Assembly (NCBI RefSeq): GCF_000711225.1
Contig: NZ_JOMG01000004.1
Span: 496,001 to 560,000, forward strand
Direction of reading: 5' to 3'
DNA length: 64,000 nucleotides
From: Pelobacter seleniigenes DSM 18267
GTDB lineage: Bacteria; Desulfobacterota; Desulfuromonadia; Desulfuromonadales; Geopsychrobacteraceae
A program made the position numbers and the translations under genes. Position 1 is the first letter of the stretch. The number at the start of each line of letters is the position of its first letter. Shown piece by piece: positions 12,205 through 51,368 of the stretch. The notes beneath the pieces were generated by a model. That model was not told where the DNA came from. It worked only from the letters and a program-made list of their open reading frames with translations, and did not search any database.

Positions 12205-13593
12205 TTAACCGACTTCATTATACTCGCGAGCCCGGAAATCCACACCCAGCTCTTGCGCCACCCGGCTACAGGCCTCCATGTCGACCCCAGGATAGCTGAC
12301 GGCGCTGGCCGTGACTTCAGGGATGACCTGCGCGGCCTGGCGCAAAAAATCCTTGACGGCGGCATAGCTTTTGCTGCCATAGCTGGATTGGCACAGGCTC
12401 TGGTAGGTGGCTTCGTCCGGGGCATTCAAGGAAACGGAAACGGAATCGATCAGCCCTGCCAGCTCCGGTAAAATATTGCGCCCGTAAACAAGGTTGGCCT
12501 GGCCGTCAGTGTTAATTCTTACCTTAATCCCCTGCTTTTTCAACCAGGCAGCAATGGTTTTGATCAGCTCCAGGCGTAACAGCGGTTCCCCGTAACCGCA
12601 GAAAACAACCTCGGAATAGTGTTTTGGGTCGCCGATGGCGGCGATGACCTCCTCGGCGGAGGGTTCATGGTCGAGCTTGAGTTCATGACCTTTAACGATG
12701 AAGTCCCGGAACTTGGTACAGAAGATACAGCTGTTGGTGCAGCGGTTGGTGATATTAAGGTAGAGAGAATCGCGGATTTTATAGGCGATTTTGTGGCTCT
12801 GATCGATCACGCCGATGCCGAACAGGTCGTAACAATTGCGACTGGTGATGCGGGCCACGTCTTCCAGAGTTAAGCCCTTGATCGCCGCAATTTTCTCTGC
12901 GGTCAACCGGACATACGCCGGTTCGTTGCGGCGGCCGCGAAATTGCTGGGGGCTCAGGTAGGGGCAATCGGTTTCGACCAACATACGATCGATGCTGATA
13001 CCGCTGACGACCTGACGAATCTCTTCGTTCTTCGGGTAAGTGATGGTTCCGGTAAAGGACAAATAAAAGCCCAGTTCGATACAGCGTCTGGCCATTGCCA
13101 AATCGCCGCTGAAGCAATGCAACACCCCGCCGACACTGGCCGCCTGCTCTTCTTCAAGGATCTGCAGCACCTCATCATGGGCGTCCCGGTCATGGACAAT
13201 GATCGGTTTCCCGGCTTCCTTCGCCAGTCGGATCTGCTGCCGAAACGCTTCACGTTGAATATCCTGGGGGCAGTGATCACGGAAATAGTCCAGACCGATT
13301 TCGCCGAGGGCGACGACTTTGGGATGCTGGAGCAGTTCCCGCAGGCGCTCCAGGGCTGCGGCATCAAGTCCGGCGGCATCATGGGGGTGAATGCCGACGG
13401 CTGCATAAATGTGGTCATATTGTTCGGCCAGGGCGACATTTTTTTCCGAGCTTGCCAGGTCGCAGCCGATACTCAAAATGTGGCTGATACCGTCGGCTGT
13501 GGCTCTGCTGATGACCTCGTCGCAGTCAGTCGCGAACTGACTGTGGTCAAGGTGAGCGTGGCTGTCGACCAGCAAAGGATGTTGTTCGGTCAT
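12205..13593 (-). CDS. TatD-family metallohydrolase fused to a radical SAM domain
   Basis: A 462-residue two-domain protein. Residues 1 to about 255 are a TatD nuclease-type domain: VDSHAHLD, VGIHPHD, GEIGLDYF, PIIVHDRDAH, VLHCFSGD and VETDCPYL give the expected metal ligands. Residues from about 270 on form a radical SAM domain with CTNSCIFC (CxxxCxxC) and a glycine-rich FCGYGEPL. This matches the 'TatD-associated radical SAM' family, here joined in one chain. I chose ATG 13593 because it gives the standard TatD start and has GGAG upstream. The longer frame to 13647 runs through a terminator-like hairpin. The reaction of the radical SAM half is not known to me. It is last in the holB-ricT-metG direction. 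Confidence 0.88.
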   Translation of the reverse strand: MTEQHPLLVDSHAHLDHSQFATDCDEVISRATADGISHILSIGCDLASSEKNVALAEQYDHIYAAVGIHPHDAAGLDAAALERLRELLQHPKVVALGEIGLDYFRDHCPQDIQREAFRQQIRLAKEAGKPIIVHDRDAHDEVLQILEEEQAASVGGVLHCFSGDLAMARRCIELGFYLSFTGTITYPKNEEIRQVVSGISIDRMLVETDCPYLSPQQFRGRRNEPAYVRLTAEKIAAIKGLTLEDVARITSRNCYDLFGIGVIDQSHKIAYKIRDSLYLNITNRCTNSCIFCTKFRDFIVKGHELKLDHEPSAEEVIAAIGDPKHYSEVVFCGYGEPLLRLELIKTIAAWLKKQGIKVRINTDGQANLVYGRNILPELAGLIDSVSVSLNAPDEATYQSLCQSSYGSKSYAAVKDFLRQAAQVIPEVTASAVSYPGVDMEACSRVAQELGVDFRAREYNEVG

Positions 13594-13604
13594 TTTTTTG
13601 CTCC

Positions 13605-13633
13605 AAAAAATCGGGGCGCTGTAGTGCGCCCCG
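13605..13633 (-). terminator. Rho-independent terminator directly upstream of the TatD-radical SAM start
   Basis: On the minus strand an 8-bp stem, CGGGGCGC with GCGCCCCG (13633-13626 and 13619-13612), has a six-base loop and is followed by six Ts at 13610-13605. The GGAG and start codon of the TatD fusion come immediately after. It therefore ends the metG transcript or limits read-through into the fusion gene. Confidence 0.75.
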
Positions 13634-13662
13634 CAAGAACCATGCAAGTGATAGCTCTAATA

Positions 13663-15192
13663 TTACTCGGTTTCTATCCGCGGGAAAAGAGGCGCGGCTT
13701 TTTCAATGGTGGTGCCGGGTTTCAGTCCACCCCACTGATCCTGTCCGTCCAGGGCCAGGTTGGTTCCGTCAGCACCAAGCAGGGAGCTGATCTTGGCGCC
13801 GGTTTCGGGCATGAAGGGTGCCACGATCAGGGCGATCAGGCGCAAGGATTCCAACAGGTTGTACATCACCGTTGCCAGGCGCTCACGCTGCTGAGGGTCT
13901 TTGGCCAGGGTCCAGGGGGCGGTTTCATCAATGTATTTATTGCCGGCTGAAATCAGCTCCCAGATGCTCATCAACGCCTTGTTGAAGGCCATATCTTCAA
14001 GCTGTTCATCAATTTTAGTCAGGTTGGCGGCAAATAGCTCGATCAGTTTTTCATCGATTTCGAGGCGTGCCCCCGGTTCCGGCAATTCCCCGGCAAAATA
14101 TTTGCCAAGCATGGCCGTTGAGCGGCTGACCAGGTTGCCCAGGTCGTTCGCCAGGTCGGAGTTGATGCGATGGATCAGAGCGCTGTGGGAAAAATCGCCG
14201 TCCAGTCCGAAGGGAACCTCGCGGAGCAGGAAGTACCTGATGGCGTCGACGCCGTATTTGTCGACCAGCATATTTGGCTCGACCACATTGCGCAGGCTCT
14301 TGCTCATTTTCTGCCCCTCCACGGTCCACCAGCCGTGAGCGAAAACTTTCTTTGGCAACGGCAGGCCCGCGGCCATCAGGAAGGTCGGCCAGTAAACGGC
14401 ATGAAAGCGCAGAATGTCTTTGCCGATCACATGAACCGCCGGCCAGAATGTTTCGAAATTGCCGTCTTTGTCCTCCGGGTAACCGAGGGCGGAAATATAG
14501 TTGGTCAGGGCGTCAAACCAGACATAGATGACGTGTTTATCATTACCTGGAGCCGGGATTCCCCAGGAAAAGGAGGTCCGGGAAATGGACAGATCACGCA
14601 GGCCTTCCCGGACAAAGCTGAGGATTTCGTTGCGGCGTGATTTCGGCTGAATAAAGTCCGGGTTGTTCCCGATATATTCGAGGAGCTGATCCTGGTATTT
14701 GCTCATGCGAAAGAAGTAGGACTCTTCCTTGAGCTTGGTGGTCGGCCGACCACAGTCCGGGCAGTTGCCGTCGAGCAGCTGGGTTTCGGTCCAGAAGGTT
14801 TCACAGGGAGTGCAGTACCAGTCCTCATATTCCCCAAGGTAGATGTCTCCCTTGGCTTCAATAGCTTTGAACTGCTCCTGGACCGTATGCTTGTGGCGTT
14901 CCTGGGTGGTACGGATAAAATCGGTATGGGAGATGTTGAGTTTTTTCCACAGGGCCTGGAAGCGTTTAACCACCCGGTCGGCAAGTTCAAGGGGGGTCTC
15001 CCCGTTGGCTTTGGCGGCGGTTTCAACTTTTTGCCCATGCTCATCGGTACCGGTCAGAAATGCAACCTGATAACCGCGCGCCCGTTTGTAGCGGGCCAGC
15101 ACGTCGCAGGCCAAAGTCGTGTAGGCGTGGCCGATATGCGGAACATCATTGACATAATAAATAGGTGTCGTGACGTAAAAGGTTTTTTCCAT
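13663..15192 (-). CDS. metG: Methionyl-tRNA synthetase
   Basis: Class I synthetase of 509 residues that charges tRNA-Met. It has the HIGH motif as PHIGHAY, the KMSKS motif as GQKMSKSLRN, and a zinc knuckle with CTPC followed by CPDC. The protein ends after the anticodon-binding helical domain and lacks the C-terminal EMAP/Trbp111-like tRNA-binding extension of many longer MetG proteins. It starts with ATG after GGGAG. The gene follows ricT after 42 bases and is probably co-transcribed with holB and ricT. Confidence 0.96.
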   Translation of the reverse strand: MEKTFYVTTPIYYVNDVPHIGHAYTTLACDVLARYKRARGYQVAFLTGTDEHGQKVETAAKANGETPLELADRVVKRFQALWKKLNISHTDFIRTTQERHKHTVQEQFKAIEAKGDIYLGEYEDWYCTPCETFWTETQLLDGNCPDCGRPTTKLKEESYFFRMSKYQDQLLEYIGNNPDFIQPKSRRNEILSFVREGLRDLSISRTSFSWGIPAPGNDKHVIYVWFDALTNYISALGYPEDKDGNFETFWPAVHVIGKDILRFHAVYWPTFLMAAGLPLPKKVFAHGWWTVEGQKMSKSLRNVVEPNMLVDKYGVDAIRYFLLREVPFGLDGDFSHSALIHRINSDLANDLGNLVSRSTAMLGKYFAGELPEPGARLEIDEKLIELFAANLTKIDEQLEDMAFNKALMSIWELISAGNKYIDETAPWTLAKDPQQRERLATVMYNLLESLRLIALIVAPFMPETGAKISSLLGADGTNLALDGQDQWGGLKPGTTIEKAAPLFPRIETE

Positions 15193-15234: not shown

Positions 15235-16359
15235 TCATGACTTGGTTTCAGGATTTTTGGGGCGGTTCGAACGCCGTCGGGGTCTTCTGCGCCGTCGTTG
15301 GGGCTTGCCTTGAGCATCCTGTTCAGCCGGAGTGCTGTTATTGCTACTGCTACTGCTCGGAGGTTGAACCGGGGCGCTGTCACGGCTTTCCGTGGTTTTC
15401 TTCTGCACCGGGGCCGGGCGGCCTTGCGGTTTGGCGCGTCGCTGGCTGCGTCCCGGTTTTTTACCCGGGGGGGATTCCGGGGCCGTTTTGCCGCTCTCTT
15501 CTTTGGGGGCCTTGGGCTCGGTTTCCTGTGCCGGCGGTGCTGCAGCCTGATTGTCGATTTCCTGTTGCAGCTCTTTGATATGCTTCTGGCAACGCTCCCC
15601 GTCATGGCAGACCAGAGTAACCTTCTGGGCCAAAATATCGAGGGCGATAACCTCAGCCTTACCGTCTTTAAGCTGCAGCTTCTTGCCGCACTTCGGCAGA
15701 TTTTTCTTCAGTTCGTTGTAGGTTTCGTATTCATAGGCCAGACAGCACAGCAACCGGCCGCACTGACCGGAGATCTTGGTGGGGTTGAGGGCCAGCCCCT
15801 GAGCTTTGGCCATTTTGACCGACACCGGGGCAAATTCACGCAGATGACTGCAACAGCACAGTTCCCGGCCACAGATACCGAGTCCCCCGACCAGCTTGGC
15901 TTCATCGCGAACGCCGATCTGGCGCATTTCGATTCTGGTTCGGAAATGTTGGGCCAGGTCGCGAACCAATTCACGAAAATCGATGCGGCCGTCAGCCGTA
16001 AAGTAGAAAATGATTTTCGACCCGTCGTAGAGGTATTCGGCGCGGACCAGCTTCATGTCCAGTTTGCGCTGCTGGACCTTGTCCTGACAAAACAGCAGGG
16101 CTTCCTTCTCGCGCTGGGCGTTGCTGTCGGCCATCTGCTGATCGCTTTCTGTGGCGATGCGGATGACCGCTTTCAGTTTGGGTGGTGCTTCCGCGGGGGA
16201 GATTTGCCGTGGTTTGGTAATGACCGTTCCCAAAGCACGTCCCCGCTCGGTTTCAACGATGACTTTGTCTCCAGGGACCAGTTCCAGCTCCTTAACTTCA
16301 AAGTCGAAGATTTTTCCTGCCGTATGAAAAGCGATACTGACTATTGTAAGAGGTTCCAT
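15235..16359 (-). CDS. ricT: PSP1-domain protein of the RicT/YaaT family
   Basis: A 374-residue protein of the PSP1 family. In Bacillus, RicT (YaaT) works in an iron-sulfur-containing complex with RicA and RicF that affects RNase Y and mRNA maturation. The conserved core spans residues 1 to about 270 and includes the cysteine-rich segments CGRELCCC and CGRLLCCL. The last 100 residues are a low-complexity tail rich in Pro, Lys, Arg and Ser that ends in a run of arginines, which suggests nucleic-acid contact. Bacillus yaaT also sits beside holB, and the order holB-ricT-metG here is the same type of arrangement. RicA and RicF partners are not seen in the window. Confidence 0.85.
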   Translation of the reverse strand: MEPLTIVSIAFHTAGKIFDFEVKELELVPGDKVIVETERGRALGTVITKPRQISPAEAPPKLKAVIRIATESDQQMADSNAQREKEALLFCQDKVQQRKLDMKLVRAEYLYDGSKIIFYFTADGRIDFRELVRDLAQHFRTRIEMRQIGVRDEAKLVGGLGICGRELCCCSHLREFAPVSVKMAKAQGLALNPTKISGQCGRLLCCLAYEYETYNELKKNLPKCGKKLQLKDGKAEVIALDILAQKVTLVCHDGERCQKHIKELQQEIDNQAAAPPAQETEPKAPKEESGKTAPESPPGKKPGRSQRRAKPQGRPAPVQKKTTESRDSAPVQPPSSSSSNNSTPAEQDAQGKPQRRRRRPRRRSNRPKNPETKS

Positions 16360-16560
16360 AAAACCCAGATCCTTTGGTATATATCGAAAAAATCCGCTGG
16401 GGACTTTTTCATGTATGGGCGGAGAAAAGATTCTTTTTCCGCCTTATGAAATCAACAACAGGCAGCTGCGCGGCTGATGTTACGGCCCTGTAAAAAAGGG
16501 CAATCAAGGTTGTTACTGCCTGATGTGACAGAGCGTTGCTGCCGCCAATATCCCTTGCCT

Positions 16561-17532
16561 TCAGGCGGCGGCGATTCCCAGCAGCATCACCTCCATGGTC
16601 AGCTGCCGATTGACATTTCTCTGCAGATGAAAGCGTGCCTGGTCAATGGTTTTCAGCTTGGCCAGCACGCTTTCGACGGAAGCTCGCTGAACTTCCCGAT
16701 TGAGCAATTCCAGAAGATCCTGATTCACCAGATCTTCTTCCGGGCGGCCGTATTTCAGCAGCAACAGGTCGCGGAAAAAAGCCTGGAAAATATCCAGGAA
16801 GTCCTGCAGGCTCTCTTTTTCCTCGGCCAGTTCCTCAGCCAGGGATAACGTCGGAATATTACTTCCTGGGGACAGTGCTGACAAGGCTTGAATCAGTTCG
16901 CGGCGTTTTTCCAGAAACAGCTGCTGTTTTGGCCCCAGGGCTTTTTTGAAGCTACCGTCCGACAGGGCAGCCAGGACTGCAATCTCGGTCTCATTGAAAT
17001 CGAGCCGCTGACTCAGGAGCGTGGACAGTTGGCGGAGCGGCAGCCTGCGGAACGGGAGCCGTTGGCAGCGTGACCGGATGGTCGGCAGCAACTGCTCCGG
17101 CCGTCCGGATAGAAGAATCATGACGGTATTGGGCTGCGGTTCTTCCAGTGTCTTCAGGAGTGCATTGGCTGCCCCGGCAGTCAGATATTCGGCGCCGTCA
17201 ATCAGGCAGACCTTGTATATCCCTTCCAGCGGACGCAGTGACAGTTGCTGCTGCAGTTCGCGGATCTGATCGATCTTGATCGCCGCCTCTGCGCTGTCGA
17301 TCAGATGGACATCCGGGTGATTGTTGTGGTCGATCTTGCGGCAGGCGGCGCAATCACCGCAGCCGGTTCCGTGCAGACAGAGCAATGCCCGGGCAAAGGC
17401 CAGGGCCATCAGTTTTTTACCGATCCCTTCGGCCCCTTCGAAAAGATAGGCATGGGCGATCCGCTTATTGGCCAGGGCCCGGCGGAGAATATTTTTCTGC
17501 TGCTCGTGCCCAGCTATGGATGCAAAGGTCAT
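16561..17532 (-). CDS. holB: DNA polymerase III delta' subunit
   Basis: Clamp-loader subunit of 323 residues. It has an AAA+ fold with a P-loop-like GAEGIGKK, a four-cysteine zinc module (CLHGTGCGDCAAC), and a sensor-like TLEEPQPNT segment in the conserved place. The segment LIDGAEYLTAGAANALLKTL is typical of delta' and gamma/tau. The start ATG follows GGAGG. The gene is first in a minus-strand group with ricT, metG and TatD. Between its promoter and its start lies a terminator-like hairpin that could regulate it. Confidence 0.92.
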   Translation of the reverse strand: MTFASIAGHEQQKNILRRALANKRIAHAYLFEGAEGIGKKLMALAFARALLCLHGTGCGDCAACRKIDHNNHPDVHLIDSAEAAIKIDQIRELQQQLSLRPLEGIYKVCLIDGAEYLTAGAANALLKTLEEPQPNTVMILLSGRPEQLLPTIRSRCQRLPFRRLPLRQLSTLLSQRLDFNETEIAVLAALSDGSFKKALGPKQQLFLEKRRELIQALSALSPGSNIPTLSLAEELAEEKESLQDFLDIFQAFFRDLLLLKYGRPEEDLVNQDLLELLNREVQRASVESVLAKLKTIDQARFHLQRNVNRQLTMEVMLLGIAAA

Positions 17533-17558
17533 GGAGGTTCCGAAGCAAAGTGTAAACG

Positions 17559-17703
17559 AAAAAAAACAGACGGTTCAGAGTGTCAAGTGGCCAGGTGTTA
17601 ACCGAAGGTTGAACCGTCTGCCATCTTCTGTCTGCGGTTGATACCCGGCAGAGCTCGCGACTGTTTTCTCTGGACTGGCTAAGCCATGTTTTTTATTTCA
17701 ACC
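17559..17703 (-). ncRNA. Candidate small RNA or attenuating leader upstream of holB
   Basis: A transcript from the promoter at 17708-17737 would run about 145 bases to an intrinsic terminator: a 10-bp perfect stem, CAGACGGTTC (17620-17611) with GAACCGTCTG (17576-17567), then eight Ts (17566-17559). The terminator ends 27 bases before the holB ATG. The 5' end, GGTTGAA (17703-17697), can pair fully with TTCAACC (17613-17607), which touches the 5' arm of the terminator stem. Alternative structures are therefore possible. Inside are smaller hairpins: TGGC/GCCA and CAGAG/CTCTG. I recognise no known RNA family. It may be a stand-alone sRNA or a leader controlling holB-ricT-metG. Confidence 0.5.
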
Positions 17704-17707
17704 TGTC

Positions 17708-17737
17708 ATTATAGGTAGACAATTCTGCTTGAATCAA
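17708..17737 (-). promoter_or_regulatory. Sigma70-type promoter for the holB leader/sRNA
   Basis: On the minus strand TTGATT (17737-17732) and a perfect TATAAT (17713-17708) are separated by 18 bases. Transcription would start near 17702, at the 5' end of the structured leader. Confidence 0.7.
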
Positions 17738-17767: not shown

Positions 17768-17796
17768 TTGAACTGCCGGGTGCTTTTGGCTATACT
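17768..17796 (+). promoter_or_regulatory. Sigma70-type promoter of rnc
   Basis: TTGAAC (17768-17773) and TATACT (17791-17796) are separated by 17 bases. The expected start near 17803 gives a leader of about 29 bases before the GTG start of rnc. It is divergent from the holB leader promoter about 30 bases away. Confidence 0.75.
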
Positions 17797-17831
17797 CCGC
17801 GACAAATAAGAGAATGGGAAATGGAGGAGCA

Positions 17832-18536
17832 GTGCCGAAGTTTTTGGATCATCTTGAAAATGCTTTGAATTACACTTTTTGCGACCGCTCTTTGCCGCTT
17901 CAGGCGTTGACTCATAAATCCTTCAGTAATGAACAGTCCGAATTTGTTCTGCATAACGAACGTCTTGAATTCCTGGGCGACGCAGTTCTTGAACTGGTTA
18001 TCAGTCAATGGGTTTTTCGGCAATATCCGGATATCCCGGAAGGCGGCCTGACCCGGATCCGTGCCGAGGTCGTCAGTGAAAAGGGGCTCGCCGAAATCGC
18101 CCGCGAACTGGACCTGGGGCGTGGGTTGAAGCTTGGTCGAGGCGAGGAACGAAGCGGGGGACGGGAAAAGCCGAGCCTGCTTGCCGATGCGCTGGAGGCC
18201 CTGTTGGGGGCGATCTTTCTGGACGGAGGTTTTGCCGCCGCCTGCCAGGTGGTGGAGCGGCGGTTTGCCGCTGCGATAAAAAAATCAGCACTGCTGCGTT
18301 ACGGCAGTGATTATAAAACCTGTCTTCAGGAAAGGTTGCAGGCCTGTTATAATCAGTTACCCGAGTATATCATGACCCAGGTCTCCGGACCTGACCATGA
18401 CCGGATGTTTTCCATGGAAGTTCGCTTTAGCGGAAAGCTGCTCGGCAAAGGGAGTGGCAGCAGCAAGAAAAGTGCTGAACAAAAAGCCGCGGCTGCAGCC
18501 CTGGATCATCCTTTATTAAGATCGTTGGAGAAATAA
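17832..18536 (+). CDS. rnc: Ribonuclease III
   Basis: Double-strand-specific endoribonuclease of 234 residues that processes rRNA and structured mRNA. The catalytic signature ERLEFLGDAVLEL is followed by a second acidic cluster in LLADALEALLGAIFLDGG. The C-terminal dsRNA-binding domain begins near DYKTCLQERLQ and ends KKSAEQKAAAAAL. A longer frame begins at ATG 17814, but that codon lies about 11 bases from the predicted transcript start with no ribosome site. GTG 17832 follows GGAGGAG and gives the usual RNase III N-terminus. The stop overlaps the era start in TAATG. Confidence 0.94.
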   Translation: MPKFLDHLENALNYTFCDRSLPLQALTHKSFSNEQSEFVLHNERLEFLGDAVLELVISQWVFRQYPDIPEGGLTRIRAEVVSEKGLAEIARELDLGRGLKLGRGEERSGGREKPSLLADALEALLGAIFLDGGFAAACQVVERRFAAAIKKSALLRYGSDYKTCLQERLQACYNQLPEYIMTQVSGPDHDRMFSMEVRFSGKLLGKGSGSSKKSAEQKAAAAALDHPLLRSLEK

Positions 18537-51260: not shown

Positions 51261-51368
51261 CACTCGCCTTTCGGGGCGGGTCTGGTTGTGAACTGTGGGG
51301 ACATCTCCCCCTGCAGATCCGACCGCGGCATAAGCCGAAACAACATTATTTGAGAAGGAGCAAGTGAG

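Follow-up and report, generated by a model that had tools for sequence, protein, structure and literature searches.

The window analysed here is a stretch of 64,000 nucleotides from Pelobacter seleniigenes DSM 18267. It carries holB, ricT and metG in this order on the minus strand, with a promoter, a leader and an intrinsic terminator upstream of holB, while rnc lies on the plus strand behind a promoter of its own (Table 1).

Table 1. Features of the holB leader and its neighbourhood, in window positions
Feature	Position	Strand	Basis or remark
Divergent rnc promoter, TTGAAC-17-TATACT	17768-17796	plus	CGGAGTATA (other-strand reading) invariant in 12 leaders
rnc, ribonuclease III	17814-18536	plus	TIGR02191
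Sigma-70 type promoter of the holB operon, TTGATT-18-TATAAT	17708-17737	minus	sequence; same element in relatives
5′ leader	17533-17703	minus	start predicted near 17701; reaches to the holB start codon
GGTTGAA, proposed antiterminator strand	17697-17703	minus	weak
Open frame MADGSTFG*, 8 codons	17598-17624	minus	overlaps the 5′ arm of the terminator
Intrinsic terminator	17559-17622	minus	arms, 32-nt loop and T8; this genome only
holB, DNA polymerase III subunit delta'	16561-17532	minus	TIGR00678, 219 bits (cut-off 180.6)
ricT, next gene of the operon	15235-16359	minus	NF041131, 303 bits
metG, methionyl-tRNA synthetase	13663-15192	minus	

Promoter and genes of the holB operon

The initial annotation, made from the sequence alone, had placed a near-consensus promoter upstream of holB in a unit divergent from rnc. 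Both statements hold: every element of the unit is on the minus strand, and the −35 hexamer 5′-TTGATT (17737-17732) and the −10 hexamer 5′-TATAAT (17713-17708), separated by an 18-nt spacer, match the consensus at 10 of 12 positions. Four promoter-like sites were present in a 2-kb stretch, compared with 0.8 ± 0.9 in shuffled sequences. The start site near 17701 was predicted from the position of the −10 hexamer.

The same element was found in relatives. A sequence of the form TTG[A/C]T[T/A]-N17-19-TATA[A/C]T occurs in the gap beside rnc in 33 of the 37 other genomes of the family that have rnc in the examined stretch. The four exceptions, three genomes of genus g6 and genome G010, have a longer separation between rnc and holB. 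Across an alignment of 12 sequences of leaders in which holB comes first, TTGATTCA was unchanged. HolB, or a weaker DnaX-type match, was detected in 43 of 44 family genomes, and rnc was divergent, reading upstream of holB, in every family stretch where it was found. The gene next to rnc varied: tmk stands between rnc and holB in some genera and holB comes first in others. Since the promoter is conserved in place and sequence before (tmk-)holB in these 33 genomes, it serves the operon; judged by its sequence, it is an old, ordinary, family-wide operon promoter that is used whichever of the two genes comes first. Because it is orthologous to the promoter of the holB/tmk operon, the RNA that begins there is the 5′ leader of the operon and not the product of an independent small-RNA gene.

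The gap between holB and ricT is 201 nt here and 13-104 nt in 27 relatives, and these short gaps support the assignment of the genes to one operon. The gap in the window (16360-16560), which contains a hairpin, 5′-GGCGGA...TCCGCC, occurs only once in the genome at E ≤ 0.1, and approximately 60 nt of it match at 77% elsewhere on the same contig. In addition, a TatD-type nuclease (TIGR00010, residues 26-277) and a TatD-associated radical SAM protein (TIGR04038, residues 286-477) are fused in one open frame at 12205-13647 (minus strand). The initial annotation had also remarked that RicT is an RNA-processing factor and that RNase III is encoded divergently; this stands as gene context only.

The terminator in the leader and in relatives

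The terminator had been described as a perfect 10-bp stem with eight Ts and proved slightly better than that. On the minus strand, the 5′ arm GGCAGACGGTTCA (17622-17610) and the 3′ arm TGAACCGTCTGTT (17577-17565) are separated by a 32-nt loop and form 11 perfect Watson-Crick pairs, or 13 when two G-U pairs are counted, with pair probabilities of 0.91-1.0 in the predicted fold. The T8 tract (17566-17559) ends 26 nt before the start of holB, so that the site does lie just before the gene although the distance given had been 27 bases. A simple terminator scanner with a loop limit of 8 missed this site with its 32-nt loop. The T tract is present in the holB direction only; as the opposite strand has none, the terminator does not serve rnc transcripts. 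It is located between the start site and the first gene and oriented with that gene, as in a leader attenuator, and the promoter ahead of it serves the downstream operon. No promoter-like site was found in the 26 nt between the terminator and holB.

A terminator with a stem of at least nine Watson-Crick pairs and at least seven Ts in eight positions was reproduced in none of 3000 dinucleotide shuffles of the 281-nt gap between rnc and holB. The same criteria picked out 21 strong terminator-like sites in 464 kb of the genome, five in the window and 16 in another 400 kb, with genes taken from a simple gene caller. Eighteen of them have a same-strand gene upstream, which is the expected place. 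Among the remaining three, one sits where an opposite gene ends, with the next start 542 nt away, and one is between opposite genes; the third, in the holB leader, is alone among the 21 in following a divergent gene and preceding a start codon by a few tens of bases. No other site in this set has so long a loop, which would fit incomplete termination.

No comparable terminator was present in the other rnc-holB or rnc-tmk leaders of the family that were examined. Weak candidates (6-8 pairs, 5 T) were seen in three of the stretches (L060, L114 and L120), and their sequences are unrelated. Beyond the promoter the leader could not be aligned with those of relatives; in the alignment, the terminator of the window shows as additional sequence that separates the old leader from the start of holB. 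Searched against 135 further genomes from the order, the leader had no credible match at the DNA level, and a single 19-nt match among them (E = 0.008) was treated as chance.

The origin of this extra DNA was also sought. A mobile element or repeat that carried the terminator was rejected, as the leader occurs just once in the genome and has no match in plasmids or phages. No further exact copy exists of the 3′ arm with its T tract, and matches with two or three mismatches exceeded a reversed-pattern control only moderately (77 versus 55). Neither could the leader be explained as a remnant of tmk, to which it gave no credible match. An open-literature search found no report on this leader.

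Loss of tmk and a T4-type dNMP kinase

A dTMP kinase gene exceeding the TIGR00041 cut-off lies beside holB in 22 of 44 family genomes; none was detected in the genomes of five other genera or in that of the window (G000), where PF02223 was not detected either. Of the 22 genomes without tmk, 17 have PF21448 (DNMK, T4-type dNMP kinase), and each of the six genera concerned is represented among them; the same model matched in seven of the 22 genomes with tmk, none of these seven in genera g5 or g2. The DNMK of the window's genome is a P-loop protein of 220 amino acids (L095:4660-5322, that is G000:C4:44660-45322). In Pseudomonas putida KT2440, thymidylate kinase activity has been taken over by a T4-type dNMP kinase (PMC10653934). 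By analogy, the T4-type enzyme has probably replaced tmk in the six genera, within the limits that incomplete genomes set to inference from gene content. That several genera have lost tmk and carry a phage-type nucleotide kinase is a more general observation than the terminator.

The gain of the terminator would have taken place in the same gap that lost tmk. The distance from the −10 hexamer to holB is 175 nt here, versus 54-110 nt in relatives without tmk at this place. A young regulatory leader might have arisen in this way, with a controllable terminator gained after the loss of tmk and now adjusting the output of delta', RicT and MetG to a cellular signal, or releasing a trans-acting leader RNA. 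We consider such a history unlikely.

Interpretation of the leader

We think it probable that the promoter and leader found here belong to the holB-ricT-metG operon and that a premature intrinsic terminator specific to this lineage, that is, an attenuator, lies within the leader. RNA polymerase would start near 17701, and a large share of the transcripts would stop at T8 (17566-17559) as a leader RNA of about 143 nt. The remaining transcripts would continue past it into holB and the downstream genes, and the net effect, in cis, would be a lower output of the operon. The holB gene is essential in well-studied bacteria. As this essential gene has no other visible promoter, some polymerases would have to read through the terminator, which is probably leaky for the same reason. 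Transcription of holB may also come from a promoter of a different type within the leader. A fixed, leaky terminator is probably present here and not a regulated switch, and a short leader RNA with reduced holB expression is likely from the sequence. The initial annotation had offered either a small RNA or an attenuator ahead of holB; we favour the second, because the promoter is the operon's own and the terminator lies between it and the start codon.

A regulated attenuator, in which 5′-GGUUGAA or translation of the 8-codon frame blocks the terminator under some condition and switches on holB-ricT-metG, appears improbable. The complementarity behind it, which had led to the suggestion of antitermination, does exist: 5′-GGTTGAA can pair with 5′-TTCAACC (17613-17607) at the edge of the terminator arm, with a probability of up to about 0.24 in a transcript that stops short of the 3′ arm. 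The pairing itself is weak. It reaches no further into the stem than TTCA, or 4 of the 13 pairs. Once the 3′ arm is made, in the full transcript, its probability falls to 0.0, the forced structure being 12.5 kcal/mol worse (−31.2 versus −43.7 kcal/mol). A nearer 5′-TCAACC (17641-17636) competes about equally for the same strand, and 8.8% of shuffles contain 7 nt complementary to the first 21 nt. The frame MADGSTFG* shares sequence with the 5′ arm, but no good ribosome-binding site precedes it and it is probably incidental. No conservation backs any of these elements.

A small RNA of about 143 nt that acts in trans, made from the shared promoter and with base-pairing targets of its own, we regard as similarly improbable. 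The anatomy from promoter to terminator, the typical size and the U-rich 3′ end would suit it, but the promoter belongs to the operon, and the RNA is single copy, without a relative in the 135 other genomes of the order and without an Rfam match. The unit was said to be a structured stretch; this is true of the terminator but not of the rest, as the whole unit folds no better than its shuffles (z = −0.84). The proposal of a new small RNA did not survive as far as a conserved RNA is meant: homologues with conserved or covarying stems were not found in those 135 genomes, and the stems are absent from the family leaders examined, the outcome that the initial annotation had itself named as speaking against it.

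The comparison with Rfam, including 6S RNA, that had been suggested gave no family at the thresholds used. No Rfam 15 model matched at its gathering score, and a search up to E = 10 returned nothing relevant, the two strongest hits below threshold (E = 4.3 and 5.8) being on the other strand. 6S RNA (RF00013) did not match here even at E = 10. Two 6S genes that pass the Rfam cut-off are located elsewhere in the genome (G000:C1:82592-82771 and G000:C4:402027-402207), and the window contains an L20-Deltaproteobacteria ribosomal protein leader (51284-51360, plus strand, 46 bits).

Functionless drift, by which the leader grew after the loss of tmk from the gap and acquired by chance a terminator that is efficiently read through, would agree with the enlargement of both gaps flanking holB and with the unconserved leader, but it is very unlikely given a 13-pair stem with T8 that no shuffle reproduced and that would be expected to cut the expression of an essential gene unless tolerated.

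Among known systems, 6S RNA resembles the unit in length only. Small RNAs derived from leaders by premature termination share a promoter with an operon and have a discrete 3′ end, both of which are expected here too; the holB leader differs in having no evidence of targets, conservation or a stable RNA. The closest likeness of the probable holB attenuator is to leader attenuators. Unlike them, it has no recognised conserved sensor, riboswitch, protein site or leader peptide, and it differs further in its restriction to one genome and in its 32-nt loop. Its own promoter, a leader RNA, a terminator tens of bases before the first gene and the lack of another visible promoter are the same as in those systems. 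If real in the cell, this would be a lineage that gained an intrinsic terminator in the leader of an operon with an essential replication gene; in other respects it is an ordinary leader-attenuator candidate.
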